Assembly (NCBI RefSeq): GCF_006538165.1
Contig: NZ_BDLU01000070.1
Span: 1 to 64,000, forward strand
Length of the DNA: 64,000 nt
Source of the DNA: Komagataeibacter diospyri
GTDB lineage: Bacteria; Pseudomonadota; Alphaproteobacteria; Acetobacterales; Acetobacteraceae
Direction: 5' to 3'
In this document: positions 20,090-38,480 of the stretch, piece by piece
How the letters are laid out: each line of letters begins with the position of its first letter
How positions within the stretch are numbered: the first letter of the stretch is position 1
Made by a program: the position numbers and the translations under genes
Notes under the pieces: generated by a model
The model's input: the letters and a program-made list of their open reading frames with translations, nothing else
Database searches by the model: none
Told to the model about the DNA's origin: nothing

Positions 20090-21594
20090 GGTGTGGCGCC
20101 CTCCCGGCTGGTCACGGCTGTAACGGACAGGGGGGATGGCGCGGAAAACATCATGAAAGGCTGCGGATAAAGGCCCAGCACGACCAGAAAGACCATGATG
20201 CAGGCGAAAACTGCCATCTGCCGGACCGGAAAGTCCTGTATGGGGTGCTGGTCGGGCCGGGAAGCCGCCAGGAATATGCGGTTGACCATCCGCAGCGCGT
20301 AGATCGCGGACAGAACCAGTCCGGCCGTCGTCAGTGTCGCAGTAGTGGGGCTGACATGCCATGTCGCCAGCAGGACAAGGAATTCGCCCGCGAAGTTACC
20401 CAGTCCCGGCATGCCGAGTGAGGCCACGGCAAAGAACAGCCCCGCGGTGGACAGGCGTGGCATTGCCGTCCACAGCCCGCCAATACGGTACATGTCCCGT
20501 GTATGCAGCCGGTCCTGAATGGCGCCTGCGATCAGGAACAGGGCTGCCGTGCTCAGCCCATGGGCCAGCATCTGTATGATCGCCCCCTGCATCCCCATGC
20601 GGGAACCGGTAAAGATGCCAAGCAGTACGAAACCCATATGACTGATGCTGCTATAGGCAATCAGCCGCTTGACATCATCCTGTGCGCACGACAGCCACGC
20701 CCCGTACAGGATCCCCGCGACGCCAAGCCCCATGGCGATAGGTGCGAAATGGCTGGCTGCATCGGGGAACAGCATGACATTGAACCGGATCATGCCATAC
20801 CCCCCGGTCTTGAGCAGTATACCCGCCAGCAGCACGCTGGCCGCCGTAGGGGCCTGCGTGTGGGCATCCGGTAGCCAGACATGGACCGGCACGACAGGCA
20901 GCTTGACGGCAAAGGCGATGAAGAATCCCAGCATAAGCAGCATGGACACGGCAGGGGATAATGGTGTGTGGGCCAGCGTGAAGTAATCAAACGTCAGTTC
21001 GCCGCTTTCCTGATAATGCGCAATGACCAGACCAAGGATGGACAGCAGCATGAGCAGGCCGCTGCCCTGCGTGAACATGAAAAACTTCATGGCGGCACGC
21101 TGCCTGTCCTCATGCCCCCATGCGGCAATCAGCACGAACATCGGCACCAGCATCAGTTCCCAGAAAAAGAAGAACAGAAACAGGTCAGTGGCCAGGAACG
21201 TGCCGATAATGCCCGTAAGGGTCGCAAGAAAAAGAAAATGGAATGCACCAGCATTGACCGTGACCTGACGGGTGGCAAGAAACACGCACAGGAAGCACAG
21301 GATAAGCGAAAGCCAGATCAGCGACAGTGAAAGACCATCCATGTCCAGCCTGATCGCAATACCCATGGCCGGGATCCATGGCACGGAAAAATGTCCAAGC
21401 CACGGCCCCGCATGGGCAGGATGGTGGAATGTGACCATCACAAGCAGCAGCGTTTCCACAGTCAGGATACCGAGCACCACCCACCATGATGCATCGCGCG
21501 CGGGGGTGGTGGTATGAGGCTGGATGTGCTCGGCCAGCCATGCCAGTCCGCCGCCCACGACAGGCAGCAGCACAAGGGCGGGCAGGGGGTTCAT
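20086..21594 (-). CDS. nuoM: NADH-quinone oxidoreductase subunit M
   Basis: 502 residues, about 14 transmembrane helices. It carries the antiporter-family core FFFWELMLVPMFVLI, the helix KLPVVPVHVWLPDAHTQAP, and LIAYSSISHMGFVLLG. It pumps protons in the membrane arm of complex I. The start at 21594 overlaps the nuoL stop by 4 bp and the end overlaps nuoN, so translation of the three antiporter-like subunits is coupled. Confidence 0.96.
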   Translation of the reverse strand: MNPLPALVLLPVVGGGLAWLAEHIQPHTTTPARDASWWVVLGILTVETLLLVMVTFHHPAHAGPWLGHFSVPWIPAMGIAIRLDMDGLSLSLIWLSLILCFLCVFLATRQVTVNAGAFHFLFLATLTGIIGTFLATDLFLFFFFWELMLVPMFVLIAAWGHEDRQRAAMKFFMFTQGSGLLMLLSILGLVIAHYQESGELTFDYFTLAHTPLSPAVSMLLMLGFFIAFAVKLPVVPVHVWLPDAHTQAPTAASVLLAGILLKTGGYGMIRFNVMLFPDAASHFAPIAMGLGVAGILYGAWLSCAQDDVKRLIAYSSISHMGFVLLGIFTGSRMGMQGAIIQMLAHGLSTAALFLIAGAIQDRLHTRDMYRIGGLWTAMPRLSTAGLFFAVASLGMPGLGNFAGEFLVLLATWHVSPTTATLTTAGLVLSAIYALRMVNRIFLAASRPDQHPIQDFPVRQMAVFACIMVFLVVLGLYPQPFMMFSAPSPLSVTAVTSREGATP

Positions 21595-23561
21595 GACAGC
21601 ACCGCCATGGCCAGGCCCGCGCACAGCCCACCCGCAATCCATGCCGCATACCACCGCACACGGCCATTATCCAATTGACCCAGCAGGTATGCCATCCATC
21701 CGGTCCCCCGGCTTCCCCATATGGAAAGAATGTCCAGAAAACCTGTCCGCGCCTGGAAAATCCGGCCACTGACGGCCTGCGTCAGCCGCCCTGTCGCAGT
21801 GATGGCATGAGCAAGAACATCATGGTGTGTCAGCCACGTCAGCAGGCGGAAGGGCTGCACGAATACACGGTCATACAGCGCATCCATGCCCCAGCCGGTA
21901 CGGGCAAGGCGGATGATGGCTGCCTGTCCGGGTATTTCATGCATGACGGGCGTAGCACGTCCCCACAGCACCCATGCAACCCCAAGCCCGGCAAGGGGGG
22001 CAAGTGCTCCCGCCAGCACAAGCCAGATCGGTTCATCTGCATGTGATAATGGCGTTTTCGGGTCAAGAAGGGTGCTGAACAGGTGAAGGGGGGGAAGCGT
22101 ATCGGGCATTTCAATGACTCCGCCGCATAGGGAGAGGAAGCACAGGCAACCCAGCGGAATGCTCATCAGGCGTGACGTCCGGCCCGTGGCCGAAGTTCCC
22201 TGTTTTTTTCCGCAAAAGACGATGAAAACGCAGCGGAAAATATACAGCGCGGTCAGGAAGGCCCCCAGCAGGGCAATCCCCCATAACGGATGCCCGCTCA
22301 GGGTCCATTCCCGCGTCAGGCCAAAATGGACGTGCCATACACCCGACAGGATCATTTCCTTGCTGTAGAATCCCGCCGTCACCAGTGGCAGGCCAGCCAG
22401 TGCGGATGCGCCCACGGCAAAGGCTGCACTCAGTCCAGGCATGGCGTGGCGCAGGCCACCAAGGCGGAAAATATCCTGTTCATGACCAGTGCGCATGATC
22501 ACGGCGCCAGCCGTAAGGAAAAGCAGCGCCTTGAAAAAGGCATGGGTCATCAGGTGAAACAGCGCCGCCTGCCATACTCCACACCCAAGGGCGAGAAACA
22601 TGTAACCAAGCTGGCTGATCGTGGACCATGCAAGGATACGCTTGAGGTCGGACTGCACCAGGGCCGTGCAGGCCCCCATAAGCAGCGTCAGCGTTCCAAG
22701 TATGGCCGTGAGCGCCATGATGGGGGTTGCCATGGCAAACAGGTCATGCAGTCGCGCGATCAGGTAGATGCCTGCAGTTACCATGGTGGCCGCATGGATA
22801 AGGGCGGAGGTCGGCGTCGGACCGGCCATGGCGTCTGGCAGCCATGTCTGGAACGGGATCTGCGCCGATTTGGCAAGTGCCCCCACCAGTATGAAAAGGG
22901 CCGCCAAATTGACACCGGACGGAGCCAGCTGCCCATTCGTGACCGCCGCCAGCACGGCCCCGATGCGCAGGGAACCTGTAGCCGTGGCCAGCAGCAGCAG
23001 GCCACACAGCAATGCCACATCCCCCATGCGGGTCATGTAGAAAGCCTTGCGCGCGGCAGCGGTATTGGCCGGGTCGTTATACCAGAACCCGATCAGCAGG
23101 TAGGAACACAACCCCACGCCTTCCCACCCGATAAACAGGCACAGCAGGTCGGACGCCAGCACCAGCACCAGCATGGCCGCCACAAACAGCGTCATGCAGC
23201 CAAAAAAGCGTGCGATCCCCGGATCATCGCGCATGTAGCCTGCGGCATAGACATGGATCAGCAGCCCCACGATCGTGACGACAAGGATCATGACCATGGA
23301 AACCCGGTCCAGCATGAAGGCGATATCCGCTGAAAATCCCGCAATATGCATCCAAGGCCACAGCGTTACCTGCAATACTCCCGCTGGTGGCCCGGACAGG
23401 AGCGTGATGGACAGGATGATGCTGATGACGGCGGATATCCCTACTCCGGTGCAGGCAACCGTCCCGATGGCACACGCTCCCATGCGACCGGCCGATACAG
23501 ACACGATCATGGATGCCGCAAGCGGGCAGAGGATGAGAAGGGGGAGAAGGATTTCACCCAT
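21591..23561 (-). CDS. nuoL: NADH-quinone oxidoreductase subunit L
   Basis: 656 residues, the largest antiporter-like subunit. It has GWEGVGLCSYLLIGFWY, KSAQIPFQTWLPDAM and LAWSTISQLGYMFLALG, followed by the extended C-terminal part expected to form the long lateral helix. It is the distal proton-pumping subunit of complex I. The start at 23561 lies inside the last codons of nuoK (8-bp overlap), fitting translational coupling. Confidence 0.96.
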   Translation of the reverse strand: MGEILLPLLILCPLAASMIVSVSAGRMGACAIGTVACTGVGISAVISIILSITLLSGPPAGVLQVTLWPWMHIAGFSADIAFMLDRVSMVMILVVTIVGLLIHVYAAGYMRDDPGIARFFGCMTLFVAAMLVLVLASDLLCLFIGWEGVGLCSYLLIGFWYNDPANTAAARKAFYMTRMGDVALLCGLLLLATATGSLRIGAVLAAVTNGQLAPSGVNLAALFILVGALAKSAQIPFQTWLPDAMAGPTPTSALIHAATMVTAGIYLIARLHDLFAMATPIMALTAILGTLTLLMGACTALVQSDLKRILAWSTISQLGYMFLALGCGVWQAALFHLMTHAFFKALLFLTAGAVIMRTGHEQDIFRLGGLRHAMPGLSAAFAVGASALAGLPLVTAGFYSKEMILSGVWHVHFGLTREWTLSGHPLWGIALLGAFLTALYIFRCVFIVFCGKKQGTSATGRTSRLMSIPLGCLCFLSLCGGVIEMPDTLPPLHLFSTLLDPKTPLSHADEPIWLVLAGALAPLAGLGVAWVLWGRATPVMHEIPGQAAIIRLARTGWGMDALYDRVFVQPFRLLTWLTHHDVLAHAITATGRLTQAVSGRIFQARTGFLDILSIWGSRGTGWMAYLLGQLDNGRVRWYAAWIAGGLCAGLAMAVLS

Positions 23562-23877
23562 GGTTCCATCCTCGCAAAAGGTTGCCGGTGTCGGCATCCA
23601 GTGTGGGGCGTCCGTGGGCATGCAGACACAGGATGATGGCAAGCCCGACTGCCGTTTCCACGGCGGCAAGGGCCAGAATCAGCACAAACATCACCTGTCC
23701 CGTCGCATCATGCCAGCGTGCGCCCGCCCCCACGAACACAAGGGCTGCTGCATTGAGCATGATGTCCAGCGACATTAGCATGAACACCATGTTGCGCCGG
23801 ACCAGCACGCCTGCCAGCCCGACCGAAAACAGGGTCGTTGCCAGCAGCAGGATGTCATTGAAGGAAAAGGCAGGCAT
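23554..23877 (-). CDS. nuoK: NADH-quinone oxidoreductase subunit K
   Basis: 107 residues with three transmembrane helices. It holds the conserved acidic residue in MSLDIMLNAAALVFV and the second in LALAAVETAVGLAII, both part of the hydrophilic axis of complex I. Length is normal for the family (about 100). It is tightly packed between nuoJ and nuoL. Confidence 0.95.
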   Translation of the reverse strand: MPAFSFNDILLLATTLFSVGLAGVLVRRNMVFMLMSLDIMLNAAALVFVGAGARWHDATGQVMFVLILALAAVETAVGLAIILCLHAHGRPTLDADTGNLLRGWNHG

Positions 23878-23878
23878 G

Positions 23879-24379
23879 TCAGTTTCCCCCCACCCGGTTG
23901 CGTCCGATGTGAAAGGCTGAGACCAGACCGGCCAGCAGCAGGAACGACGCCAGTTCGACCATCAGTACATAGCGGCCAAACAGGCTTAACCCGACATCAT
24001 GCGCCGTAATGGGGGCGAAAGGTCGTGCAGGACCGGAAAATGTCCCCATGCAATAAAGAAGTTCCGCACACACTATGGCGGCCAGAAGCCCCGGTCCGCA
24101 CCATGCGCGCGGACGCAGCCATTCCTTTTCACGTGCACTGTCCGGGTGCCCTAGATTGAGCATCATGATGACAAAGACGAACAGCACCATGATCGCACCG
24201 GCATAGATGATGACTTCCAGCATCGCCGCGAATGATGCGCCCTGCATGACAAGTATCACCGCCAGCGACAGCAGCGTCACCACCAGGTACAGCACCGCAT
24301 GCACCGCCACGCGCCGGGTAATGACCATGACGGCCCCCACAACGGTCACACTGGCGGCAAGAAGGGCCAGGGCATGCAT
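23879..24379 (-). CDS. nuoJ: NADH-quinone oxidoreductase subunit J
   Basis: 166 residues, five predicted transmembrane helices, including EVIIYAGAIMVLFVFVIMML, the signature helix of this subunit that contains the pi-bulge near the quinone/proton coupling region. It stops one base before the nuoK start and begins 6 bp after nuoI. A normal, intact subunit. Confidence 0.95.
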   Translation of the reverse strand: MHALALLAASVTVVGAVMVITRRVAVHAVLYLVVTLLSLAVILVMQGASFAAMLEVIIYAGAIMVLFVFVIMMLNLGHPDSAREKEWLRPRAWCGPGLLAAIVCAELLYCMGTFSGPARPFAPITAHDVGLSLFGRYVLMVELASFLLLAGLVSAFHIGRNRVGGN

Positions 24380-24385
24380 GACGGG

Positions 24386-24898
24386 TTACGGTAGCAGGGA
24401 ATGGAGGTCGACCGGCGGGCGTTCGCGTTCGGACGCGCCGCGATCCTTGCCGGGAATGGGAATGCCCGCGACATTGTAGAAACTGTAATCGGGATGTTTC
24501 CCGGTCCCGCTTATCAGCAGGTCGTCCTTTTCATAAACAAGGTTGGGGCGCGCATATTCGCCCATTTCAAAATCAGGCGTCAGCTGTATGGCATAGGTGG
24601 GGCAGGCTTCCTCGCAAAAGCCGCAGAAAATACAGCGCGAGAAATTGATCCGGAAATATTCCGGGTACCACCGGCCATCGGCTTCGGTTTTCTGCAGGCT
24701 TATGCAGTCCACCGGACAGGCGACGGCACACAGGTTGCACGCAACGCACCGCTCCGCCCCATCGGGATCGCGCGACAGGATGATCCGCCCGCGATAACGC
24801 GGCGGCAGGTAGGGCTTCTGTTCAGGATACTGCACGGTCGCGCGCCGGTGGAAGGCATGCAGCGCCGTCAGGAACAGGGTACGCAGGGTATCAAGCAT
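24386..24898 (-). CDS. nuoI: NADH-quinone oxidoreductase subunit I (two 4Fe-4S clusters)
   Basis: 170 residues with two ferredoxin motifs, [15 protein letters not shown] and [15 protein letters not shown], which bind clusters N6a and N6b and carry electrons from NuoG towards N2/quinone. The N-terminal amphipathic part contacts the membrane. The start was set at the internal Met of MLDTLRTLF (24898), giving the usual family length; the longer reading overlaps nuoH. Confidence 0.95.
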
Positions 24899-24923
24899 GG
24901 GAAATGCCTTTGCATCAGGCGTG

Positions 24924-25880
24924 TCACAAAGACGCGCGCAGCATGAGGATGGTTCCGGTCGCCATGACATTGAAAAGGGAAAGCGGCAGTAGGACCTTCC
25001 AGCCCAGCGCCATCAACTGGTCGTAACGCGGGCGTGGCAGGCCTGCCCGCAGCAGGATGAAAAACCCTACCATGCCCCCGGTCTTGAGCGCGAACCACAC
25101 GCCAGCGGGCAGCCACGGCCCGCGCCAGCCACCAAGGTAGAGCGTGGTCACGAGGCTTGCGACCAGGACGATCCCGGCATATTCGGCAATGAAGAACATG
25201 CCGAATTTCATGCCTGAATATTCGGTATGGAACCCCGCACCCAGTTCGTTTTCCCCTTCGGGCAGATCGAAGGGCAGGCGGTGCGTTTCTGCAATGCCAG
25301 CCAGCATGAACACGCCAAAGCCGAGACATTGCGGGATGATGAACCATAGTCCCGTCTGTGCAGCCACGATATCGTGCAGGTTGAATGACCCCGCCATCAT
25401 GACCACGCCCAGCAGGGATAGCCCCATGAAGACTTCGTAGCTGATCATCTGGGCCGCTGCCCGCATGCCGCCCAGCAGTGCGTATTTGCTGTTGGATGAC
25501 CACCCTGCCAGCACCACCGCATAGACCCCAAGTCCCATCATGCCGACGACGAACAGCAGCCCGACATTCATGTTCCCCGCAATGCCAGCGCCCATCGTGA
25601 CGGGAATGACGGCAAAGGACAGCAGGACCGTCATCATGCCAATGGCAGGTGCCGCGACAAACACGCCCCGGTCGGCAAAGGGAGGAATCCAGTCCTGCTT
25701 GAACAGGATCTTGGTCCCGTCTGCCACGGCCTGGAACATGCCGCCCGGTCCCACGCGGTTGGGACCATGCCGGTCCTGCCACAACCCCAGCAGACGCCGT
25801 TCGATCCATGTCAGCACGGTGGCAAGACCAAGGATGACCAACGGCGTAAAAATGATGGTCGTAAGCGCCGTATATGTCAT
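24924..25880 (-). CDS. nuoH: NADH-quinone oxidoreductase subunit H
   Basis: 318 residues, eight transmembrane helices. It has the quinone-chamber signatures [19 protein letters not shown] and, later, [20 protein letters not shown] with conserved acidic residues. It joins the membrane arm to the peripheral arm. The start at 25880 overlaps the nuoG stop by 4 bp, and the first 28 codons of the longer reading were dropped for that reason. Confidence 0.96.
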
Positions 25881-28618
25881 GATCCTTCTCCCCCGTCTGG
25901 CGCCCTGTCCAGCCGGGCCATGCAGGGAAAACGCAGCGCCCGCGCGACCATGTGCGCCGGGCACAGCGCAATGCCCGCAGGCAGCCCTGGCACCGGTTTC
26001 ACAGGCAGAACGTGTGGCCCGTCTTCCAGATGCAGCACCATGCGGCCTGATGTCACCATGTCGGCAGGCAGACCCAGCGTTGGCGCGGGTGCGCGCGCCA
26101 TGACGGGTGGGGAGAACATGCTCAGTTCCTCGCTGCCGAACAGGCGCGTATCGGGTAGCACCAGAACAGTATCCGTCCGCGCGGCGTAAGGGGCGGGAAT
26201 ATCATTGACGTAAGCATACGGAGGGGGATCCGCATTCTGATTCCCGGCGCGGGACAGCAGCCGCAGACCGGATGCCCCGTCACGCATGTCCCCACCAATT
26301 TCATGCTGGAAACGGTTGAGCGCCTGAACCGAATTCCATGCTGGCGCCTGATAGCCGGGAACCAGTGTGGCGGGCATGTCGGGACCATAGGCACCTTCCA
26401 TTGAACTGCTGAACGGGGTGTCCGGGCTGCCGGGCGGTGGCTGGTCATGTACGTTTACGAAGGAACGGATGACGGTCCGTCCGCTGGCGCGGTAGGTCTG
26501 GCTGCGCAGTTTCTGGCCATTCATGCGGTAATCTGCCCCCGGTGCGGCCATGACTGCCGGAGCAAGGGGGGGAAATGCCACCGCCAGTGCGGCAAGGACA
26601 TCATCCAGATCCCGCCACCCGGTCAGGCCTGAAATATGGAGCATGGACGGGTCAAGGTGCTGCGCCAGCGCCTGTACCCACCGCCAGCCCGCCTGTATGG
26701 GGGCAGTGGGAAAGACCGCCTGGAAAAATCGTTGCGCCCTGCTGTCCTGACTGACCAGCGTGCCGCTGCATTCACTGAAGGCGGCAACCGGCAGGACAAG
26801 GCTGGCCTGCTGGCACAGCGGCGTTGCCGTGTGGTCGATCATGACGATATCGGGGACTGCCGCCACCAGTTCCGCCACATCGGCCGGGGGCAGGTGGCGG
26901 GTCAGGTCGTTTTCCACAATGACCAGGGTGGAAATCGCACCCGCCCGTGCCTGTTCCATCACCGTTTCCAGCGACAGCCCCCCCATCATGGCCAGCCCCA
27001 TGCTGTTGCATTCCGGCAGCACCAGCGACAGGCCCGCTTCAGGCGTGGCGCGCGCAAGGGCTGCGGCAATACTGCTGGCTGCCTGCAACAGTGCCGGGGA
27101 GCCATATTGCATGCCCGATACGACCAGCGGTTTTCTGGCTGCCATAAGCGTATGCGCAATGCGTGTGGCACGCGCCGCATCATCTGGCGTCAGATCCGTG
27201 ACGGGTGGGGCTGCGGGATCAATTTCGTGGGCGATGGCAAAGCCCAGCCGCGCGATATCATCGGGCGCGGCGCGAAACGCTTCCGCCGCCACGCTGTCCA
27301 GATTGGTTGGCGCAGGTGTCAGGACATGCAGGGTGGACGGACATTCGGCTCCCAGCGTGCGCACTGCCGCATCCATCCAGCGTGGTACTTTGGCGCCGTC
27401 TGCCATATGGAAGGATGCCTGACGCACGGACTGTCGCAGCGACAGACCCAGCCGGGGGGCGGTGGCGCATGCGTCCTCTCCCAGAACCAGTACGGCATCG
27501 GCGCTTTCCATCTCATGCAGGGTGGGAAGGGCGCCGGGATGCCGGGTAAGCAGGGCATGGACCAGTTCCACGCATTCCTGTTCATGCCGTGTCTGGCCGG
27601 TGCAGAAATGCTGGGGACCCACCAGCGCATACAGGCTGAAACAGGTTTCCAGTGTCGCACGGGCGGAGGCGATGCCCACGATCGGGCCATCTGCCGCCAT
27701 GCGGGCGAAGGCCTGCAGGGCATCCGTTATCGGGACGGATACCTGCTGGCCGCCGATGGTGCGCAGCGGCGTGCCGATACGTGTCGGCGCATTGACAAAA
27801 CCATGCCCGAACCGTCCCCGGTCGCACAGCACGTAGCGGTTGATATCGGTATTGTAGCGGTTGAGGACACGGCGGAGGGTTTCCTCGCGCGCATTGACAA
27901 TGGTGTTGCAGCCCACCGCACAATGCACGCATATCGAGGGTGCGCCACGCATGTCCCATTTGCGGGTATAGGTAGTGGAAAAGGGTTTGTCGGTAAACAC
28001 GCCTGTCGGGCAGATTTCCACCAGGTTGCCGCTGAAGGCATTTTCCAGCGTACCGTCCGCCGCACGGCCAAAATACACATTGTCATGCGATGCAAAGGCC
28101 GCCAGATCATCCCCGCCCGCATAATCACGGTAAAAGCGCACGCAGCGGTAGCAGGCGATGCAGCGGTTCATTTCGTGTTTTACGAACGGCCCCAGATCCT
28201 GATTGCGATGCGTCCGTTTCGTGAACCGGTAGCGGCGGGGATTGTGCCCGGTCATGACCGTCATGTCCTGCAGGTGGCATTCGCCGCCTTCCTCACATAC
28301 CGGGCAGTCATGGGGATGGTTGACCATCATCCATTCGATGATGCTGGCGCGAAAATCCCGGGCTTCCGGGTCATCGGTGGATATGATGGTATTTTCGCTG
28401 ACAGGCGTCATGCAGGCCATCACGATGCGGCCCTTCGTGTCATCCGGCCCGCTGAACTGTTTGATGGCGCACTGGCGGCATGCCCCAACGGAGCCCAGTT
28501 CGGGGTGCCAGCAGAAATAGGGCAGGTTGGCCCCCGCTTCCAGACAGGCCTGCAGCAGGTTGATGCCGGTGCGGGTCAGGCAGTCCCGTCCATCAATGCG
28601 GATGCTGGTCATGGTCAT
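25877..28618 (-). CDS. nuoG: NADH-quinone oxidoreductase subunit G
   Basis: About 913 residues. An N-terminal 2Fe-2S domain (FCWHPELGSVGACRQCAIKQF region) is followed by the His/Cys 4Fe-4S site HPHDCPVCEEGGECHLQDM, the CIACYRCVRFYRD site, and a further CVHCAVGCNTI site with a later Cys in VLCDRGR, so the extra cluster N7 is probably retained. The rest is the molybdopterin-oxidoreductase fold without cofactor function. The start at 28618 overlaps the nuoF stop (ATGA); the second ATG at 28612 has a better-spaced ribosome-binding site. It is downstream of the interrupted nuoF. Confidence 0.95.
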   Translation of the reverse strand: MTMTSIRIDGRDCLTRTGINLLQACLEAGANLPYFCWHPELGSVGACRQCAIKQFSGPDDTKGRIVMACMTPVSENTIISTDDPEARDFRASIIEWMMVNHPHDCPVCEEGGECHLQDMTVMTGHNPRRYRFTKRTHRNQDLGPFVKHEMNRCIACYRCVRFYRDYAGGDDLAAFASHDNVYFGRAADGTLENAFSGNLVEICPTGVFTDKPFSTTYTRKWDMRGAPSICVHCAVGCNTIVNAREETLRRVLNRYNTDINRYVLCDRGRFGHGFVNAPTRIGTPLRTIGGQQVSVPITDALQAFARMAADGPIVGIASARATLETCFSLYALVGPQHFCTGQTRHEQECVELVHALLTRHPGALPTLHEMESADAVLVLGEDACATAPRLGLSLRQSVRQASFHMADGAKVPRWMDAAVRTLGAECPSTLHVLTPAPTNLDSVAAEAFRAAPDDIARLGFAIAHEIDPAAPPVTDLTPDDAARATRIAHTLMAARKPLVVSGMQYGSPALLQAASSIAAALARATPEAGLSLVLPECNSMGLAMMGGLSLETVMEQARAGAISTLVIVENDLTRHLPPADVAELVAAVPDIVMIDHTATPLCQQASLVLPVAAFSECSGTLVSQDSRAQRFFQAVFPTAPIQAGWRWVQALAQHLDPSMLHISGLTGWRDLDDVLAALAVAFPPLAPAVMAAPGADYRMNGQKLRSQTYRASGRTVIRSFVNVHDQPPPGSPDTPFSSSMEGAYGPDMPATLVPGYQAPAWNSVQALNRFQHEIGGDMRDGASGLRLLSRAGNQNADPPPYAYVNDIPAPYAARTDTVLVLPDTRLFGSEELSMFSPPVMARAPAPTLGLPADMVTSGRMVLHLEDGPHVLPVKPVPGLPAGIALCPAHMVARALRFPCMARLDRAPDGGEGS

Positions 28619-29529
28619 GCTCCCGATTGCTGCGGGCATCGACGCTGCTGGATGTGGGCTGCAAAATCGGCGGCAAAAAGCTTCAGCCCGCTGGCTAGTG
28701 GCGCCATTGCCCCTGGTGCGTGGGCGCAGAAGGTCCGGCCCGGTGCCCCCAGCATGCGGGCATGACGGCCAAGCTGGTCCATGTCCTCGTCCTGTCCGGT
28801 TCCGTCTTCGATCGCGTCCAGCAGGCGTTCCACCCATGGCAGCCCGTCACGGCATGGGGTGCACCACCCGCAGGATTCCTGCGCAAAGAAATGTTCCAGG
28901 TTGCGGATCATGCCGATGGGGCAGGTCCGGTCATCCAGAATGATGGCCATGCCGGTCCCCAGCCTGCTGCCTGCTTTTTCAACCGACCCGTAATCCATCG
29001 CGACATCAAGGGCGGTTCCGTCAAGAAAGGCGGTGGACGCCCCGCCGGGCAACAGGGCGCGCAACTGGTAGCCTGGAATCATGCCTCCTGCATGGTCCTC
29101 GATAATCTGGCGCAGCGGCGTGCCTATGGGCAGTTCCCACGCGCCCGGTCTCGTTACCCGGCCGCTGACACCATAGATCTTGGTGCCGCCATCTTCCCCC
29201 AGCCCGAGGTCCGCGAACCATTCCGGCCCGTTGGTGATGATATGGGGCAGGTTGCACAGCGTCTCGACATTGTTCACCACGCTCGGCGCGCCCCACAGGC
29301 CGCCGGTCTGGGGAAAGGGCGGCTTGCTGCGCGGTGTGGCGCGCCGGCCCTCCAGCGCGGTCAGCAGGGCGGTTTCCTCGCCGCATATGTAGCGTCCGGC
29401 GCTGGAATGCACATGGATGTCAAAACTGAAGCCGGAGCCAAGGATATTCTTCCCCAGCCAGCCCTGTTGCCGTGCTTCCCCGATTGCATGGTGCAGACGG
29501 GCGCAGGCAAGATGGTATTCCCCGCGCAT
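28615..29529 (-). pseudogene. nuoF: nuoF, 3' three-quarters only; 5' end cut off by a prophage
   Basis: The remaining 304 codons match NuoF from the conserved RGEY segment to the C-terminus. They contain GRYICGEETALL, NNVETLCNLPHI, and the N3 4Fe-4S site ESCGWCTPCRDG with its last Cys in TFCAHAPGA. About 130 N-terminal residues of the usual ~430-445 are missing, including the glycine-rich FMN/NADH site. The ATG at 29529 is the internal Met before RGEY, and a TAG lies three codons upstream in frame. The prophage integrase gene ends 28 bp away. A working FMN site cannot be formed from this piece. The 5' fragment should be at the far end of the prophage, outside the window. Confidence 0.9.
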
Positions 29530-29557
29530 GGATACCTAATCAAACGTAATCAACAAC
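29530..29557. other. Prophage-host junction (attachment site region)
   Basis: The 28 bp between the integrase stop and the truncated nuoF reading must hold or border the crossover. Without the other junction the core cannot be fixed. It may extend into the first nuoF codons after 29529. Confidence 0.6.
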
Positions 29558-30535
29558 TTATGGCTTAGTTTCTTTCTGGTTTAAGAAACTGGTATCTATG
29601 CGTGCGATCGCATCCTTTGCCAACTTCTCCTGACTGACGGCCAATGTATAATGCTGGACCATCGCAAGCGTCTTGTGCCCTGTTATGGCGGCAATTTCGT
29701 GGGTCGTGCATCCGGCTTCAGCCAAAAGCGTTGCTGACATTTTGCGCAGGCCATGGATATTGAAGCCCGGTGGTATTCTCCCGGATAAAGACGCCTCGCT
29801 TAATGAGGATGTGATGCTGTTAGGCTTCCATGGATCGCCATTGGTGTTGGTCAGAATAAATTCTCCGGAGTGCCTCCATTGATCCAGATAGATTGCAAGT
29901 TTAGGGTGGATGGGAATCTTTAGCGCGGTTCCGGTTTTTCCTTGGATCACATGGATAAAGTTCCCTGATATATCGGACCACTTCATCCGGCAAAGATCGC
30001 TGCGCCTCTGTCCAGTGAACAGAGCCATAATAATCGCTCTTTGCAGTGCATGATTTAAGCTCCCCATTGCCTGCTGGACGATTTCCGGTGTCCATGTAGG
30101 CAGCGGCTTGGAGGGGAGCATCTTAATCCCCGAGGCTGGGTTTACTTCAATCCAATCTCGGGTGACTGCCCACCCAAAGAATGACCGAACTATTGAAAGA
30201 AAACCATTAGAAGCGCCATGCCCCCGACATGAGGCAATCATGTCTCTGATCGCCAGTATATTCCGCCTCTTGATATCTTGGATCGGCATATCCCTAAAAA
30301 TATCAAGCTCGCAAAGATAGTATTGTTTGATCCTCTGCGTTGCCGGTCGGGTTTGTCTAAATTCAATGCTTTGCCGATATGACCGGATGACGCTTTCTAC
30401 AGATCCCTGTGCGGGCAGCCGAGAGGTGTCCTCGCCAGCAGATTTAACAGGATAGCGGTATTCCTTAATTGACCCGTCTGCCAGCCGCTTTTTTACGACC
30501 TTGAAGCGCCGCGTGCTGTCTGATTTTTTCTTCAC
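29558..30535 (-). CDS. int: Phage tyrosine-family site-specific integrase
   Basis: 325 residues. N-terminal SAM-like core-binding domain about residues 45-145, then the catalytic domain with the family residues: Arg in FTGQRRSDL, Lys in QGKTGTALKI, His-x-x-Arg in HGLRKM, His in ITGHKT, and the nucleophile Tyr in VQHYTL. It would recombine attP with an attB inside nuoF and, with the excisionase, reverse it. The start is a GTG, and the first codons overlap the upstream excisionase-like gene by 71 bp. Its stop lies 28 bp from the nuoF fragment, the normal place for an integrase next to its attachment site. Confidence 0.95.
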   Translation of the reverse strand: MKKKSDSTRRFKVVKKRLADGSIKEYRYPVKSAGEDTSRLPAQGSVESVIRSYRQSIEFRQTRPATQRIKQYYLCELDIFRDMPIQDIKRRNILAIRDMIASCRGHGASNGFLSIVRSFFGWAVTRDWIEVNPASGIKMLPSKPLPTWTPEIVQQAMGSLNHALQRAIIMALFTGQRRSDLCRMKWSDISGNFIHVIQGKTGTALKIPIHPKLAIYLDQWRHSGEFILTNTNGDPWKPNSITSSLSEASLSGRIPPGFNIHGLRKMSATLLAEAGCTTHEIAAITGHKTLAMVQHYTLAVSQEKLAKDAIARIDTSFLNQKETKP

Positions 30536-30764
30536 AATGCCGCTCTAATATCTCGTCCATGTCCCGTTTGATCTCAATGCCCTGACTTTTCATCATGAGG
30601 GCATCAACTGCGTGTCTGTCCCATCGCGGGCTGCGCTCGCCAAGGTGATAGCTGGGGCGTGGCAATTTCCCCTGCTTAACCATCCGGGCCACATTGTGGG
30701 GCTTCACATCTATGCGTCGGGCCAGCCCCTCTCGGCTAAGCCAGCGTTCCAATGCTTCACCCAT
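30465..30764 (-). CDS. Putative excisionase / AlpA-MerR-like small HTH protein
   Basis: 99 residues. The N-terminal half (WLSREGLARRIDVKPHNVAR, then GKLPRPSYHLGERSPRW) has the winged-helix pattern of AlpA/Xis-type proteins, which choose excision over integration. It directly precedes and overlaps the integrase, the usual position. The C-terminal third is charged. Function is inferred from fold-like pattern and position. Confidence 0.65.
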   Translation of the reverse strand: MGEALERWLSREGLARRIDVKPHNVARMVKQGKLPRPSYHLGERSPRWDRHAVDALMMKSQGIEIKRDMDEILERHCEEKIRQHAALQGRKKAAGRRVN

Positions 30765-30927
30765 TCTGAACCTCCACTACGCGCCCGCTATCCACAATCC
30801 TCTGCCAGGCTGCGGCATTCATCGCCACGATTTCTCCATTGCGCCGCAGAAAAACGCGGTATCGGTTCTGGGCGATCAGCTCCACGGTTTCGGTCAGGTC
30901 GCCTGCTATGCGGATTTTGTGGGTCAT
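30757..30927 (-). CDS. Small phage protein, unknown
   Basis: 56 residues starting MTHKIRIAGDLTETVEL. The start overlaps the preceding stop (ATGA) and the end overlaps the next start, so it is one link of a tightly packed operon. It has a mixed beta-like composition and no recognised family. Confidence 0.6.
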   Translation of the reverse strand: MTHKIRIAGDLTETVELIAQNRYRVFLRRNGEIVAMNAAAWQRIVDSGRVVEVQNG

Positions 30928-31097
30928 GCCAATTCCTCCCCGGCAATCACCCTCTCTATGTCCTGTTCGATAGCGGACCGCGTGGCACCCTTGGATATCC
31001 CCACGACCTTCCCGTCCAGAATGATACGGGCTTCTTTCCGGGTGCACTCCACCCGGCACCCCTTGTAGAAGAAGCCGAAGCATGTGGAGATGTTCAT
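30924..31097 (-). CDS. Small phage protein, unknown
   Basis: 57 residues starting MNISTCFGFFYKGCRV. It fills the gap between two operon genes with 4-bp overlaps on both sides, which is the main support. Contains KEARIILDGKVVG and a charged C-terminus. Not recognised. Confidence 0.6.
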   Translation of the reverse strand: MNISTCFGFFYKGCRVECTRKEARIILDGKVVGISKGATRSAIEQDIERVIAGEELA

Positions 31098-31669
31098 GAT
31101 GCCTCCCGCCGCGCGATTTCAGCAGTAATGGCAGGAATGACCGCCGCCATTACGAGGGACTGTCCATGGAAGCGGTCTCCCGCCATATTCTGACCTACAT
31201 ACGTGTCTGCCATGAAAATCCGGTCCAATATCGGCACCTTCCAACCGTCTACTGCTTGGTGGTCGCATAGCAGGCAGTTCACGCGATGCCTCACATCGGG
31301 ATCAACTTCCCTTATCGGAACATCATTCGCGCACCAGTCTTCCAGAAAATCGACGGCCTTTCGTAGATCCGTAATGGCATCCTGATCCGACCCCTTACGC
31401 CCGCACCGATAGACATACTGCCATGCCTGGGCCATATCGCCGGACAGGTAGCGCGTCACATCCCATGCCTGAAATTGGCCGGTCCGGTAGTGTTCGCCGC
31501 GTGTATCGTCGGCGATTTCTGTGCGCTGCGTACCGCGAATGCTGTCGAAACCCGCAAGCCATGGTCTACGGTATTGGCCAAAATCTATATCCTTCGGCAC
31601 TTCCCTCGGAGCGCCACGCTCAGCCGCCCGGCGCCCTCGCTGATAGGGAGTGTGCGTCTGTTCAGTCAC
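31094..31669 (-). CDS. DUF3310-containing phage protein
   Basis: 191 residues. The centre (about 55-115: HYRTGQFQAWDVTRYLSGDM, then AWQYVYRCGRKG and DLRKAVDFLEDW) matches the DUF3310 pattern, found in many phages and often annotated as a nucleotide-kinase-like protein. It lies next to the thymidylate-synthase-like gene, consistent with a role in nucleotide metabolism, but no catalytic motif is evident. Overlaps both neighbours by 4 bp. Confidence 0.7.
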   Translation of the reverse strand: MTEQTHTPYQRGRRAAERGAPREVPKDIDFGQYRRPWLAGFDSIRGTQRTEIADDTRGEHYRTGQFQAWDVTRYLSGDMAQAWQYVYRCGRKGSDQDAITDLRKAVDFLEDWCANDVPIREVDPDVRHRVNCLLCDHQAVDGWKVPILDRIFMADTYVGQNMAGDRFHGQSLVMAAVIPAITAEIARREAS

Positions 31670-32502
31670 TGGTATTTCTCCATCAGGGCGCGGTTCTGGA
31701 CCCAGCCCCGGAAATTGCGTTGGTCGGTTTCGTCATGGAAACCGGGAACATAGGGTGACGCAGAATGCTCGAAAGGACTGGCATGGAACGGACGGGAGCG
31801 CGTCAGGCGTTCACCTAGAGCCAAATCCTCAGCCAGTGAGGAAGGTCGCCCATCATGCGTCAGGTAGGACGTGCGCGCACACCGGGCAGCCGACACGATA
31901 CGCAGGTTGCCAGTCGGGTCTGTGAGGCCCTGATGCTCGCGGATTTCCTCTGGCGACACGAACGGGAGATGCCATTGGTCGCTATAGAGGTGCTGCGTAT
32001 CCGCTGCCGAAATAGCCGCTTTCATCGCCTGAGCCAGCGCGCGGATTTCCGGCTGGGCGTCCTCACGGTCGCGTAGAGCGAAGAAGTTATCCCATTCCGT
32101 TGCCGTCACCACCACGTTGATATGAGAGAATGGCTCAAGGACACGGTTGACGATCTGTTTGTGAGCGGCATGCCCAGACATGAGGCGTGCAGTTTCGACG
32201 GCATACCGCGCGCCGTCATGCCAAAGCATTTCGGTCGCTGACCTGTCATGGATTGACATTTCCTCACGTGCCTGCATCCCTTTCTGGTTCTTACCCCAGA
32301 ACACCGGCGCGGCTGGATCGCGTTCAACGTCCGCAATCAATCGCTCAACCGGGATGGCCCGGCTGCTGCTGGCGTTGCGGCTGAACTGACGATGCGTCAT
32401 GAACTCAGCATGAATAAACCGAGGATATCGTAGCAGGAGCGTGTCAATGCGCTTCCCGGCATTGCTGATGCTGGCAAGGATGGATGTGGCTGTGATGGTC
32501 AT
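31666..32502 (-). CDS. ThyX-like flavin-dependent thymidylate synthase
   Basis: 278 residues. The segment FMTHRQFSRNASSSRAIPV corresponds to the ThyX signature (RHR-x7-S in cellular enzymes), in the variant form with Thr in place of the first Arg that I associate with phage members. Later blocks VVTATEWDNFFALR and HASPFEHSA fit the nucleotide/FAD-binding parts. ThyX makes dTMP from dUMP with folate and FAD. In a phage it would raise the thymidine pool for replication. Whether the changed motif is fully active is unknown. Confidence 0.78.
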   Translation of the reverse strand: MTITATSILASISNAGKRIDTLLLRYPRFIHAEFMTHRQFSRNASSSRAIPVERLIADVERDPAAPVFWGKNQKGMQAREEMSIHDRSATEMLWHDGARYAVETARLMSGHAAHKQIVNRVLEPFSHINVVVTATEWDNFFALRDREDAQPEIRALAQAMKAAISAADTQHLYSDQWHLPFVSPEEIREHQGLTDPTGNLRIVSAARCARTSYLTHDGRPSSLAEDLALGERLTRSRPFHASPFEHSASPYVPGFHDETDQRNFRGWVQNRALMEKYQ

Positions 32503-32816
32503 CCCTGCGCCTCCCGTGCTGCGTCGATGGCGGCGCGTAAATTACGATCTATTTCGGGTACATGACTCACGAGACAAACACCGCAGCCAACGCCTCTCTG
32601 ATATTGTTTCGGCGCATACGCATGAATGCAGCATTCTGCCAACCAATCCAATCGCTCACTATCCCGCGCAATCGCTTCCCGCACGCGCTGTTCTGCCCGG
32701 CGCTCGGCTACGATGATATGCTTGGTCGCGGCGTCCCGGTCATCCACGAATGAAAATGTGCCTTCCTCGCCAAATAGGTTGGTGAGATCAGCAATCTGTT
32801 CTTCCCGGCTTCTCAC
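32499..32816 (-). CDS. Phage protein, unknown
   Basis: 105 residues, 4-bp overlaps with both neighbours. Predicted helical with charged stretches (HIIVAERRAEQRVREAIARD) and a Cys-containing centre (AECCIHAYAP, GCGVCLVSH). This could bind metal but matches no family I know. Confidence 0.6.
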   Translation of the reverse strand: MRSREEQIADLTNLFGEEGTFSFVDDRDAATKHIIVAERRAEQRVREAIARDSERLDWLAECCIHAYAPKQYQRGVGCGVCLVSHVPEIDRNLRAAIDAAREAQG

Positions 32817-33202
32817 GACTTCTTCCCTTCATCGTCGGTTAGGGCGCGGATGGCCAATGGATTGGCACGGATACCAGCAGCGATATTTCGGCAATCAGAA
32901 CCTAACGTAGGGAACGGTTGCGCGAATTGACTTGCGTATCTTTCAGCCACCTGAGCGTCTTTTTCACGCTGGTCACTAAGCATCTGCGCGAGTTCGGATG
33001 ACGAATAGACGGCACCGGCATAACGATATTCTGCTGCCATTTCCTCAATGGACCAGATCAGATCGCCGCCTTCACATGTGGTCCAGTATTGGTAGTTCGG
33101 ACCTTCCCACCAGAACTCGTGACGGTCGCCGGTATTGTCGAGGATGATATGCCAGCCTTTCCGCTCCGGCTGATCTGGCAGGCCGTGCCATGGTTTGGTC
33201 AT
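32813..33202 (-). CDS. Phage protein, unknown
   Basis: 129 residues in the leftward operon with 4-bp overlaps. Trp/Tyr-rich N-terminal half (GWHIILDNTGDRHEFWWEGP) and a helical C-terminus. No recognised domain. Confidence 0.6.
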   Translation of the reverse strand: MTKPWHGLPDQPERKGWHIILDNTGDRHEFWWEGPNYQYWTTCEGGDLIWSIEEMAAEYRYAGAVYSSSELAQMLSDQREKDAQVAERYASQFAQPFPTLGSDCRNIAAGIRANPLAIRALTDDEGKKS

Positions 33203-33399
33203 ACCTCAACCCCGTAAAGCGCAAGAATTTCTTTTGCCGCTTCAATCTGCCATCCGCGCCACATTACAGGCCCTTCTGGCCTGCGGTTACGACTGTCATT
33301 ATCAATGCGCCCATGACAGTTAGAGATAATCGTCATAGCCTTATGCAATTTGCATTCAGGATTGCGGACGATTTTCATTGTTTCTTCTTTGGAAATCAT
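33199..33399 (-). CDS. Small phage protein, unknown
   Basis: 66 residues starting MISKEETMKIVRNPEC. This start overlaps the preceding stop (ATGA), which is why it is preferred to the longer reading from 33459. It has two Cys/His-containing segments (NPECKLHK, SNCHGRID). Function unknown. Confidence 0.55.
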   Translation of the reverse strand: MISKEETMKIVRNPECKLHKAMTIISNCHGRIDNDSRNRRPEGPVMWRGWQIEAAKEILALYGVEV

Positions 33400-33773
33400 T
33401 CCCCATCCCCCGGCAGGACTTCGCGGACGTGGATTGTGCGCTGGAAACGCACTCTGCATTTCTCTGCTTCTTCTTCTGACAGGTAAACCGATCGTCCACC
33501 GCCATAATACTCATTAACCCAAAACTCCCGCGCCACAGGGACTTCGCGGGCGTTCATGAGGTCGTCTGGTTTCGGCCCAGCAGCTGAAAAAACAGAACCG
33601 TCAGCTTCAAAGCTTCCGGCCAAATCACAACCATCTATGATTGCGACAACGGGGTATTTCGTACTGCCACCAGTCCGGCTGATGATGCGAGCAGGTAGCC
33701 CATCCCGCGTGCAAAACGGCCCCTCATGCTCCGGGGTGTAGGGGCCGATGATTTCAAGTTTTGTTTTGGTCAT
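33396..33773 (-). CDS. Phage protein, unknown
   Basis: 125 residues, operon member with 4-bp overlaps. Contains a beta-rich stretch (YPVVAIIDGCDLAGSFEADG) and a charged C-terminus. Not recognised. Confidence 0.6.
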   Translation of the reverse strand: MTKTKLEIIGPYTPEHEGPFCTRDGLPARIISRTGGSTKYPVVAIIDGCDLAGSFEADGSVFSAAGPKPDDLMNAREVPVAREFWVNEYYGGGRSVYLSEEEAEKCRVRFQRTIHVREVLPGDGE

Positions 33774-33958
33774 TCTCCAAACGCCTCAAGCTGCTCGTTC
33801 TGCGCCGCCTTTGCGCCATCGCAGAACTGATCGTGTTCTTTGCTGGTAAAATCCCAACCATGCGCTTCTATGGCGTCTCCGCAGTCCATTCCTGAAAATT
33901 CACCTTTATCGTAGGCCCAGTCGTAACCGGCCTGCCATGCTACGGGCATTCCCATCAT
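33770..33958 (-). CDS. Small phage protein, unknown
   Basis: 62 residues, acidic (EFSGMDCGDAIEAHGWDFTS). Flanked by ATGA overlaps on both sides, which supports that it is translated. No family assigned. Confidence 0.55.
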   Translation of the reverse strand: MMGMPVAWQAGYDWAYDKGEFSGMDCGDAIEAHGWDFTSKEHDQFCDGAKAAQNEQLEAFGE

Positions 33959-34452
33959 GCCTTCTCCCCTACGACCGATCCTTCGTTGAGAGCCGTCCGG
34001 GCGATTTCTCGAAGATAGCGGCCATCGTAGATGCTAGGTTCAGCGCGCACAATTTCGAGAAGGACCGCGCTAAGCCGCGCAATCTCTGCATCCTTCTCCG
34101 CCGCCACCTTCGCAACCTGCGCTTCCATGTCGGTGCGGCGGACGAGGGGGATTCCGCCGTCCCATTCCTTGTGGATTGAAACCGCATGGCATCCGGGAGC
34201 CTTGATATCGACAAAGGATGTTTCCCGGCCCCATCCGACCGTCTCCACGTCCGCGCACGGCGGGATGGGGGCGCTGATGGCGATGAGTGCTGCTTCGGCG
34301 CTGTCCCGACGAGTGAGGCGGTAGAACGTATCATGCTGTTCATCTGACAGCGGCAACCGCACCATAACAAACTGTTCTTCGTTCTTCATGATCAATTCTT
34401 CCAAATGAACCTGCCGCGCATCGTGGATCAGTTCGTTTTCAGAACTGCACAT
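33955..34452 (-). CDS. Phage protein with C-terminal coiled coil, unknown
   Basis: 165 residues. Residues about 105-150 (VAKVAAEKDAEIARLSAVLL) are predicted coiled coil. The start at 34452 has AGGA 7 bases upstream; another possible start is the Met of MKNEEQF (34389). No recognised function. Confidence 0.55.
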   Translation of the reverse strand: MCSSENELIHDARQVHLEELIMKNEEQFVMVRLPLSDEQHDTFYRLTRRDSAEAALIAISAPIPPCADVETVGWGRETSFVDIKAPGCHAVSIHKEWDGGIPLVRRTDMEAQVAKVAAEKDAEIARLSAVLLEIVRAEPSIYDGRYLREIARTALNEGSVVGEKA

Positions 34453-34645
34453 GGTCGGTTCCTATGATCTGGGTGAAAGCTTCCCACGGTTCGACGCCGT
34501 TATCGCGGGCAATACACAGGCGACGTTTCTGCCGGGAATTGCAGGGCGCGGAGTTATGCGCCCTCATGTGCAGTTCGACCTGCTGCATCCACGTAAGCCG
34601 CGTGGCGAGGTAGTCGGGTTCGGCGGCGTCGCTGGTGGGGGTCAT
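34439..34645 (-). CDS. Small phage protein, unknown
   Basis: 68 residues, basic in the centre (HNSAPCNSRQKRRLCIARD), starting in an ATGA overlap with the exonuclease stop. Perhaps nucleic-acid binding; not recognised. Confidence 0.5.
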   Translation of the reverse strand: MTPTSDAAEPDYLATRLTWMQQVELHMRAHNSAPCNSRQKRRLCIARDNGVEPWEAFTQIIGTDHVQF

Positions 34646-35277
34646 GCTGCACCTCCTACCTGCTGCATCATCCCGCGCTGCCGTGCCCGTTCCAGCAGTT
34701 CCAACTTCATGTCGTGGAAGTCTTTGAGGGCCTGTTCCAAGTTCTTGATGAACGGTTCGTCACGGAATACCCGCTCCACATAGGATGGCATTTCCTCGCA
34801 GTAGGAATACTTATCCGTCCATTCACGCTCACAGACCATCATCTGGCCTTGCGTCTGGGTATTATACTTGTGCCCAAAGCCGTCGAACTCGTATTCTATG
34901 TGGGTCTCCACCTTCGGGCACTTGATTTCGAGAAGCCCGTCATCACCCACCATTCGGTCAGGACTTGCCCCGGCAATACCGCTGTCAAGCGTCACAAAGC
35001 CAACCTTCTGCAGGACACGTCCGGTCTCAAACGCGTAAAGGTCAGCTGCGACCGGCTCAAGTTCATTCCCGCGCTGCACATCGTAGTTGTTTGACAGGTC
35101 AGCACCGAGGGGGCGCTGGAGAATGATTTCTCCGACAAGCCGGATGGCATACTTGCGGGACTGCGTAGAAAGCTTTCCCGTGTTGCTTACGATCTTGTCG
35201 AACTCGGATGCTGTAGGAAGGCCGAGGCGCGCCTGAAGCCACGCCTCGCTACCCTGTTCCATGGTATGGATCTTCAT
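34642..35277 (-). CDS. YqaJ-family phage exonuclease/recombinase
   Basis: 211 residues with the lambda-exonuclease-like YqaJ fold. N-terminal EQGSEAWLQARLGLPTASEF, then catalytic acids in GIAGASPDRMVGDDGLLEIKCP (the D and the E-x-K pair), and the C-terminal YNTQTQGQMMVCER. It would digest one DNA strand from double-stranded ends to make single strands for the annealing protein. Encoded directly downstream of the Erf gene with 4-bp overlap, the standard pairing in phage recombination systems. Confidence 0.88.
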   Translation of the reverse strand: MKIHTMEQGSEAWLQARLGLPTASEFDKIVSNTGKLSTQSRKYAIRLVGEIILQRPLGADLSNNYDVQRGNELEPVAADLYAFETGRVLQKVGFVTLDSGIAGASPDRMVGDDGLLEIKCPKVETHIEYEFDGFGHKYNTQTQGQMMVCEREWTDKYSYCEEMPSYVERVFRDEPFIKNLEQALKDFHDMKLELLERARQRGMMQQVGGAA

Positions 35278-36050
35278 TTCGCCTGCGCTCCCGTCTGGCG
35301 GCGCTTGTTCAGGGAGTTCACAATCCGGGCGAACTGATTGGCCGGAAGTTCCTGGATCGAATTGGCACCAAAATGCTTGAGAACATCCGTCAAGGGCATG
35401 CCAATTTCAAAAACCATATCCTGAATAGCTTTTGCCTGCGCTGCATCCACAGTGCGGACAAATCCCTGCACACCATCGTCATCGGCATTTTCACGCACGA
35501 TGTTGAACAGCATCTCCGCGCAATACCGCTTACCGTAGGAAAGCGTTGATCCCATTGCCTGCAGGGCATTGCGGCCAGGGCCGTTATCGATCGGAAGCGG
35601 CATGGATGCCGTCTGGCTGTGCCCACTGCGATGCCTGACGGTTCCGGTTATGGTCAGGCCGCCCTGACGCTCCTGCGCGTCAAACGACAGGGAAAAGCCG
35701 AACTTCTGCATGACCGGACGGAGCATCCGATCCATATCTTCCCATCGGGCAAAGCTGTATTTCCCCTTGCCGGTATCGACCTTGCCCATCTTTGCAACGC
35801 GCTGGATTTCCCCAGTGGCGTCGGCCATAGCCTGGTTGAACTCGGCCTCTGCCTGCCGCTTCATGATGCTGTCCTGCAGTTTAAGCAGTTCGTGCATCTT
35901 GTCCACGTCAACGGACGGGTCAGCGGCCGCGCGCGCGATGACGTTCAGGATGCTATTGGATACGGCTGGGTCCTGTTCCTGCCTTGTCGCCACCGCCTGA
36001 TCCTGCTTGACGGATACTGTGGTTGCTTTGCGCTCAAGCGTTTCAGACAT
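35274..36050 (-). CDS. erf: ERF-family single-strand annealing protein
   Basis: 258 residues from the ATG at 36050, which has GGAG 9 bases upstream; the ORF also allows a start 15 bp earlier without such a site. The core has the ERF pattern: AEAEFNQAMADATGEIQRVAK, SFARWEDMDRMLRPVM, then GFSLSF, and GSTLSYGKRYCAEMLFNI. It anneals complementary single strands during phage recombination and works with the YqaJ exonuclease encoded next. Confidence 0.9.
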   Translation of the reverse strand: MSETLERKATTVSVKQDQAVATRQEQDPAVSNSILNVIARAAADPSVDVDKMHELLKLQDSIMKRQAEAEFNQAMADATGEIQRVAKMGKVDTGKGKYSFARWEDMDRMLRPVMQKFGFSLSFDAQERQGGLTITGTVRHRSGHSQTASMPLPIDNGPGRNALQAMGSTLSYGKRYCAEMLFNIVRENADDDGVQGFVRTVDAAQAKAIQDMVFEIGMPLTDVLKHFGANSIQELPANQFARIVNSLNKRRQTGAQAK

Positions 36051-36051
36051 A

Positions 36052-36222
36052 CTAGGGAACTCCATATGATGGCGGAAAGTAGATCTTTTCGTAATCAGGG
36101 AACGGCCACGCGGGGATTTCCAGATCGTCGCGTCCCGTGATGCGCTGCCAGTCGGTGCAAGGGTCCATCATGCGCAGGTTCCGGCGCGCTGCCTCAAGCT
36201 GTCGGGTGGTGAGGGTTTTCAT
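36052..36222 (-). CDS. Small phage protein, unknown
   Basis: 56 residues starting MKTLTTRQLEAARRNLRMM. Its stop is next to the erf start and its own start overlaps the stop of the upstream gene. Contains CTDWQRITGRDDLEIPAWP. Too short for family assignment. Confidence 0.55.
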   Translation of the reverse strand: MKTLTTRQLEAARRNLRMMDPCTDWQRITGRDDLEIPAWPFPDYEKIYFPPSYGVP

Positions 36223-36767: not shown

Positions 36768-36853
36768 AGCCCCCGCCTCCCCAAATGGGCAGGCACAGGC
36801 CGCCGGTTGACCCGGACGCGGGCGTACTGGTGGGATGTCAGGGGGAAGGTCAT
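36764..36853 (-). CDS. Very small phage ORF, possibly translated
   Basis: 29 codons (MTFPLTSHQYARVRVNRRPV...). Support is only positional: its ATG overlaps the previous stop and its stop overlaps the next GTG. Basic. May be just a coupling ORF. Confidence 0.35.
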   Translation of the reverse strand: MTFPLTSHQYARVRVNRRPVPAHLGRRGL

Positions 36854-37146: not shown

Positions 37147-37228
37147 AATCAATTCCTCTCATTACTTGGAAAATACTCGGCCAACTCGGCCAGACTGCCG
37201 GGACCGCAATCCCGGTGGCCTGGGCGTG

Positions 37229-38034: not shown

Positions 38035-38064
38035 TGCCCATCTCCGTGTTGGTGATGGGAACAA

Positions 38065-38081
38065 TGTCGGATAATCCGACA
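38065..38081. promoter_or_regulatory. Perfect palindromic operator at the head of the leftward operon
   Basis: TGTCGGATAATCCGACA is an exact 8+1+8 palindrome. It has the same half-site (TGTCGGA) as the three sites between the repressor and cro-like genes. It lies 31 bp before the first leftward gene, in the place of the lambda left operator. A CATAAT hexamer just upstream on the minus strand could be the -10 box. Confidence 0.75.
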
Positions 38082-38467: not shown

Positions 38468-38480
38468 GAGGGGACGCACT

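Follow-up and report, generated by a model that had tools for sequence, protein, structure and literature searches.

Probable integration of a contractile-tailed temperate phage into nuoF of an accessory complex I operon in Komagataeibacter diospyri

Why should a gene for the NADH (reduced nicotinamide adenine dinucleotide)-binding subunit of respiratory complex I start in the middle of its protein, directly behind the integrase gene of a phage? The question is raised by bases 1–64000 of contig NZ_BDLU01000070.1 (C70; 74,055 bp) of Komagataeibacter diospyri, the stretch analysed here and called the window, in which nuoF lacks its first ~130 residues. A preliminary description of the window had attributed this to a prophage inserted in nuoF and had proposed that its excision might serve as a genetic switch of NADH oxidation. 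Analysis of the whole genome, a 3.76-Mb draft of 105 contigs with a completeness of 100%, makes it very probable that a temperate contractile-tailed phage has integrated at a 14-bp core in nuoF, within the operon of an accessory complex I of the E. coli type. None of our results supports the proposed switch.

Pfam matches and coordinates confirm that nuoF is truncated at RGEY and that 28 bp separate the stop codon of the integrase gene (int) from the ATG of the remaining 3′ part (nuoF′). The A of this ATG is contributed by the phage and the TG by the core. The C70 frame retains positions 77–149 only of the flavin mononucleotide (FMN)-binding domain, followed by the SLBB and 4Fe-4S domains. The other junction lies on contig C13, where the 5′ part of nuoF, the sole other partial copy in the genome, covers positions 1–81 of the FMN domain and likewise adjoins phage DNA. 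Upstream of it are nuoE, nuoCD, nuoB and nuoA (A, CD and E by Pfam). The FMN/NADH site, earlier placed in the missing part, is therefore not wholly absent from C70, since the FMN domain is split with a piece on each side.

Both host junctions carry the same short direct repeat, TGCGCGGGGAATAC, as for integration by a tyrosine recombinase, and this is the repeated core that the preliminary description had foreseen. It occurs exactly twice in the assembly, at the two junctions, against a chance expectation of ~0.03 in random sequence by simple arithmetic; the reversed pattern, used as a control, gives no match. Host flanks joined in silico through a single copy of the core encode a 432-aa NuoF without any stop, the split falling at codon ~132, which bears out the earlier prediction that excision restores the gene. 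A tRNA gene as the phage target is absent from the window.

From the integrase-side junction the phage genes run through 44.5 kb of C70 to its end, which falls within a baseplate J gene, and they occupy a further 8.5 kb of C13. With the unassembled gap the prophage measures at least 53.0 kb, and the separation of nuoF′–N from nuoA–E, first given as more than 34 kb, is revised upwards to this figure. Over their last 1.1 kb, C70 and C15, a contig with a second phage-like element, are 92% identical, and the gap after the baseplate J gene is likely caused by a break at this repeat. Head, tail, packaging and lysogeny genes are all present, and an integrase with the catalytic domain of its family lies at one end of the prophage (Table 1). 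Further genes encode a primase-like protein, scaffold, baseplate and antirepressor-like proteins, and many other frames are without assigned function. Five IMG/VR contigs (L230, L231, L232, L234 and L251) align over most of 48.5–60.4 kb, the whole part fetched, at 79–86% identity; among the 35 loci compared, the others, apart from the contig of the window itself, are less alike. The large terminase matches 525 records in the phage collection, all at less than 60% identity, the best being two Synechococcus phages (51%).

Table 1. Features of the interrupted operon and of the prophage (positions on C70 unless C13 is named)
Feature	Position	Strand	Remarks
nuoH to nuoN	18635..25880	-	intact frames
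nuoG	25877..28612	-	intact frame
nuoF 3′ part	28615..29529	-	304 aa, starts MRGEY
att core TGCGCGGGGAATAC, integrase-side junction	29515..29528	-	14 bp; twin at C13 8484-8497(-)
nuoF 5′ part	C13 8430-8882	-	150 aa, ends ...FLRGEY + 17 phage-encoded residues, then stop
Prophage	29529..64000, on to 74055; gap; C13 1-8484	.	phage genes on both contigs
Tyrosine integrase	29558..30535	-	325 aa; PF00589, 9.2e-21; reads towards nuoF′-N
Excisionase-like small DNA-binding protein	30465..30764	-	PHROG 597 and 66; no Pfam match
Thymidylate synthase	31666-32502	-	PHROG 85, 2.6e-71
Phage exonuclease	34642..35277	-	
Erf-like single-stranded DNA-annealing protein	35274..36065	-	
Phage repressor-like regulator	39286..39654	-	
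DNA helicase	41719..43248	+	
Terminase small and large subunits	49517..51288	+	
Portal protein	51304..52821	+	
Major head protein	53529..54953	+	
Tail sheath (contractile tail)	58564..60054	+	
Probable tape measure protein	61603..63825	+	weak PHROG match, 8.7e-5
LuxI-type synthase and LuxR-type regulator	67031-67660 and 67739-68449 (L004:12031-12660, 12739-13449)	-	PF00765, 5.5e-18; PF03472, PF00196
HicB-like antitoxin gene	72291-72821	-	beyond window, inside prophage baseplate cluster

The site is uninterrupted in relatives. Among 18 other Komagataeibacter genomes (19 including the present one), 11 have an intact accessory NuoF, 84–94% identical to the joined protein and aligned over 426–432 residues, and the remaining 7 have no accessory match at E<=1e-80. 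The frame is full-length in all 11, as the preliminary description expected of relatives, and none starts at MRGEY. Among solved structures, the best match to the intact congener protein is NuoF of E. coli complex I (PDB 7p64; matched residues 7–423 of 432). Of 80 named NuoF loci, taken from a capped list, 79 give a single match that is free of stops and covers almost all of the protein; the remaining one (L171) matches from residue 81 on and still spans the insertion site. In a wider family set of 397 genomes, with at most four candidates scored per genome, 70 of the matches listed have E<=2.3e-133, and in these only the NuoF of the window breaks at the insertion site by missing its other half. 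No interrupted accessory nuoF is present in the other 18 congeners, nor is one interrupted at this site among those 70 matches. Three candidates for further interruptions were rejected: in G286 the break near the site is a frameshift with both halves adjacent, in G307 a frameshift with adjacent halves lies elsewhere in the gene, and in G325 (C6) a contig end cuts the gene, which has residue 115 as its first and still spans the site.

The interrupted operon is E. coli-like, with nuoA, B, CD, E, F and G–N in order, NuoCD fused (Pfam) and all frames free of stops except at the split. Its nuoL scores above the NCBIfam equivalog cut-off and its nuoM above the subfamily cut-off; the best match of nuoN reaches 315 bits, under the cut-off of 332.6. 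A second set (nuoA, B, C, D, E, F, G, H, I, J, K, L and N) is present on contig C32, where a 480-aa antiporter gene is nuoN. A full-length nuoF near nuoA–E, the finding which the preliminary description held would argue against the insertion, does exist in this set. However, it is a divergent paralogue of the split gene, found in 19/19 Komagataeibacter genomes at 95–100% identity, and the insertion stands. The genome has no full third nuoF, as two of its three Complex1_51K matches are the split halves. The standard operon has no nuoM between nuoL and nuoN (C32 116,065–119,453; L006:6065–9453), the same being true of G281, and a lone nuoM-family gene is situated at C37 31,907–33,448 (L339:2907–4448) beside genes that by eye resemble parE and mutL. 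All 14 subunits thus have a second copy, the C37 product presumably belonging to the C32 enzyme.

Because this second gene set is present, the loss expected in the lysogen is that of the accessory enzyme, one of its two complexes I. Loss of complex I altogether, as first suggested for the lysogen, is contradicted by the gene content. Besides complex I, acetic acid bacteria use NADH dehydrogenases of type II.

These data suggest the following course of events. The tyrosine integrase of the phage itself would have inserted it into nuoF at the 14-bp core. In the lysogen neither NuoF fragment would work, since each holds only part of the FMN domain, and the accessory enzyme would be inactive or would lack its NADH-oxidising module. 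Transcription of nuoF′–N would depend entirely on read-through from int or on promoters elsewhere in the prophage. NADH oxidation would fall to the standard complex I (C32 together with the C37 nuoM), so that the insertion would be tolerated, and excision at induction would restore nuoF passively.

Several points weigh against integration of this kind. Neither an empty bacterial attachment site (attB) nor a phage attachment site (attP) occurs in the assembly, and a search of IMG/VR with a single exact 26-base attP pattern gave no match. The prophage is spread over two contigs or more and interrupted by a gap, so that its wholeness and the physical link of C70 to C13 are inferred. An IMG/VR contig with an identical integrase is 44,498 bp long, the extent of C70 29558–74055, and is probably the same assembly, hence one host only is known. 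In addition, two in-frame NuoF fragments could in principle associate.

The nuo genes show no decay so far. All frames from nuoA to nuoN are stop-free in this genome except for the split, and the ratios of nonsynonymous to synonymous substitution rates (dN/dS) are much like those of relatives. They were obtained with our own counting script (Nei-Gojobori method; gap columns dropped), against nine relatives and among four of these (6 pairs). For nuoF the values are 0.079–0.117 against relatives and 0.085–0.135 among them, for nuoG–N 0.171–0.207 and 0.203–0.220, and for nuoA–E 0.108–0.157 and 0.155–0.195. The 5′ piece of nuoF alone (132 codons) gives 0.087–0.208 and 0.076–0.191, i.e. slightly higher against relatives. 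Relaxed selection is not clearly indicated by these alignments. The measured divergence mostly predates the insertion, and dN/dS cannot date the insertion. Since the nuo genes have not decayed, the insertion is probably recent or reversible. The nuoK frame ends four residues earlier in 8/9 relatives. In G379 the accessory nuoCD (L310) has one in-frame stop, which is perhaps another loss of the accessory complex or else a sequencing error.

We consider it likely that the insertion is, as a special case of the integration described above, a plain recent and near-neutral lysogeny, in which nuoF offers a landing site that the host can do without and decay of the operon will follow. The absence of accessory NuoF from 7/18 congeners, while the other nuoF occurs in all 19 genomes, agrees with this, as do the integrases of G142 and G281, which also adjoin damaged-looking host genes (see below); the undecayed frames are the point against it.

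The targets of related integrases bear on the same question. The closest integrase in the family set, where the search reached 13/18 congeners, is that of G142, 53% identical. Of 12 related virus records, five match the integrase at E<=0.001, with identities of 100% (its own), 53% and, in three records, 20–28%; the other seven, which may be fragments, do not. No nuoF piece lies beside the integrase at 29 loci of relatives (L012–L040, the strongest matches, with flanks of up to 1.5 kb). Integrase flanks were viewed at 12 loci, five flanking genes being scanned by profile, and all 12 sit at genes other than nuoF. The integrases of G142 (L012) and G281 (43% identical, L018) adjoin truncated-looking TonB-dependent receptor genes. 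That of G249 adjoins an MBOAT gene whose beginning appears to be missing (the profile match sets in at position 71 of 337), those of G259 and G307 a WbsX-type gene matching only the first 86 of 350 positions, and that of G355 precedes a gene which by eye begins like exonuclease III. A Plug-domain search gave 14 matches, in which the truncated gene begins at position 17 of the profile, but revealed neither the remainder of the G281 receptor gene nor a far junction, so insertion into this gene is not proven. Judged from these flanks, integrases of this group may habitually enter coding genes, with varied targets, and their phages may disable uptake receptors.

Active lysogeny, the switch of the preliminary description, would have the phage excise reversibly and without lysis under some condition, so that the accessory complex I would be alternately active and silent. 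In favour of such a switch are the rebuilding of nuoF exactly in frame, the presence of an integrase and an excisionase-like gene, and the undecayed frames under purifying selection. However, no excised form is present in the assembly, the interruption is not kept across species, the related integrases viewed lie at other genes, and seven of the 12 related virus records, which may be fragments, have no match to this integrase. With most of the divergence older than the insertion, a recent insertion accounts for the intact frames no less well than a maintained switch would. Active lysogeny is improbable, and regulated switching is unlikely on present evidence.

It has also to be considered that the fragment starting at MRGEY is a functional short NuoF made from the integrase promoter, giving an NADH-independent complex. 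Its open ATG follows int on the same strand, and the 28 bp before nuoF′ hold no terminator-like site on the minus strand, so read-through from int into nuoF′–N is possible from the sequence. Against a short NuoF, half of the FMN domain is gone, and a terminator-like site lies inside int (30225–30209). Others occur inside nuoF′ and nuoG, such sites numbering seven against 3.8 expected by chance. A simple promoter scan of 28000–33000, which has low power in this group, gave one site, on the opposite strand, against 2.8 expected by chance. A working short NuoF therefore seems very improbable. Very improbable, too, is a chance joining of unrelated contig ends by assembly or binning, as the 105-contig draft and the break of the prophage in the repeat shared by C70 and C15 might suggest, and it was rejected because the junctions lie far from contig ends (the closest being 29.5 kb and 8.5 kb away), share an exact 14-bp core with one copy beside the integrase, and carry nuoF halves that complement each other to the base.

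Prophage integration in nuoF has parallels elsewhere. In Bacillus subtilis, the active prophage SPbeta resides in spsM and its excision has been shown, tied to sporulation with the accessory factor SprB (PMC4191935). As in that system, the prophage here splits a coding gene, and precise excision, here in silico, rebuilds the composite gene (PMC4191935). Unlike SPbeta, the present case is one of anatomy alone, known from sequence. In Staphylococcus aureus, insertion of phiSa3 is reported to inactivate hlb, and protein-producing variants to arise (PMC6597384). That prophage also sits in a host gene, its target being a secreted enzyme, unlike the respiratory subunit here. In acetic acid bacteria, one survey describes phiAP1, phiKX1, phiKM1 and others as mitomycin-inducible, myovirus-like phages of 34.1–53.8 kb, tyrosine integrases being present in 5/6 of them (PMC8566455). 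The present prophage is like these phages in its contractile tail, size range and tyrosine integrase, whereas phiAP1, unlike the prophage in nuoF, has its integration site in the 3′ end of a tRNA-Ser gene (PMC8566455). The terms ‘nuo’ and ‘NADH’ are absent from the main text of that survey, and ‘nuo’, ‘quorum’ and ‘integration site’ are absent from the available passages of PMC13028821. Titles and abstract openings on prophage, nuoF and integration contain no description of a prophage in nuoF. The accessory complex resembles that of E. coli in the relation of its NuoF to PDB 7p64 and in its fused NuoCD, and differs in that E. coli nuoF is not interrupted. The locus offers a clear-cut case, open to experiment, in which a prophage occupies the gene for the NADH-binding subunit of a complex I. 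Because the second complex I gene set remains, the lysogen and a cured strain are directly comparable, and such a comparison could reveal the role of the accessory enzyme in cellulose- and vinegar-making bacteria.

Beyond the window, the prophage carries a luxI/luxR pair between the probable tape measure gene and later tail genes. The genome has no PF00765 match other than this luxI. A luxI occurs in 6/18 congeners at 76–88% identity, the system there being named GinI/GinR. In G397 and in the IMG/VR contig L324, luxI/luxR lie near genes resembling a few of those of the prophage. A prophage luxI in Komagataeibacter is not named in the titles of the literature found. A LuxI/LuxR pair of Komagataeibacter can thus travel on a temperate phage. 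That the pair of the prophage governs its integrase or excisionase, so that cell density would decide the rebuilding of the accessory complex I, is a barely plausible idea.

The second phage-derived cluster, on C15 in this genome, has a head protein 83–85% identical to that of the prophage. It is present in 16/18 congeners, and a short remnant is found in G354. In the three congeners compared, G281 (C1 ~693,500–711,800; L330, L331) and, at the corresponding place, G060 and G303, the cluster is co-linear together with the neighbouring sequence on both sides. It is a candidate domesticated phage element of the particle or gene-transfer-agent type.

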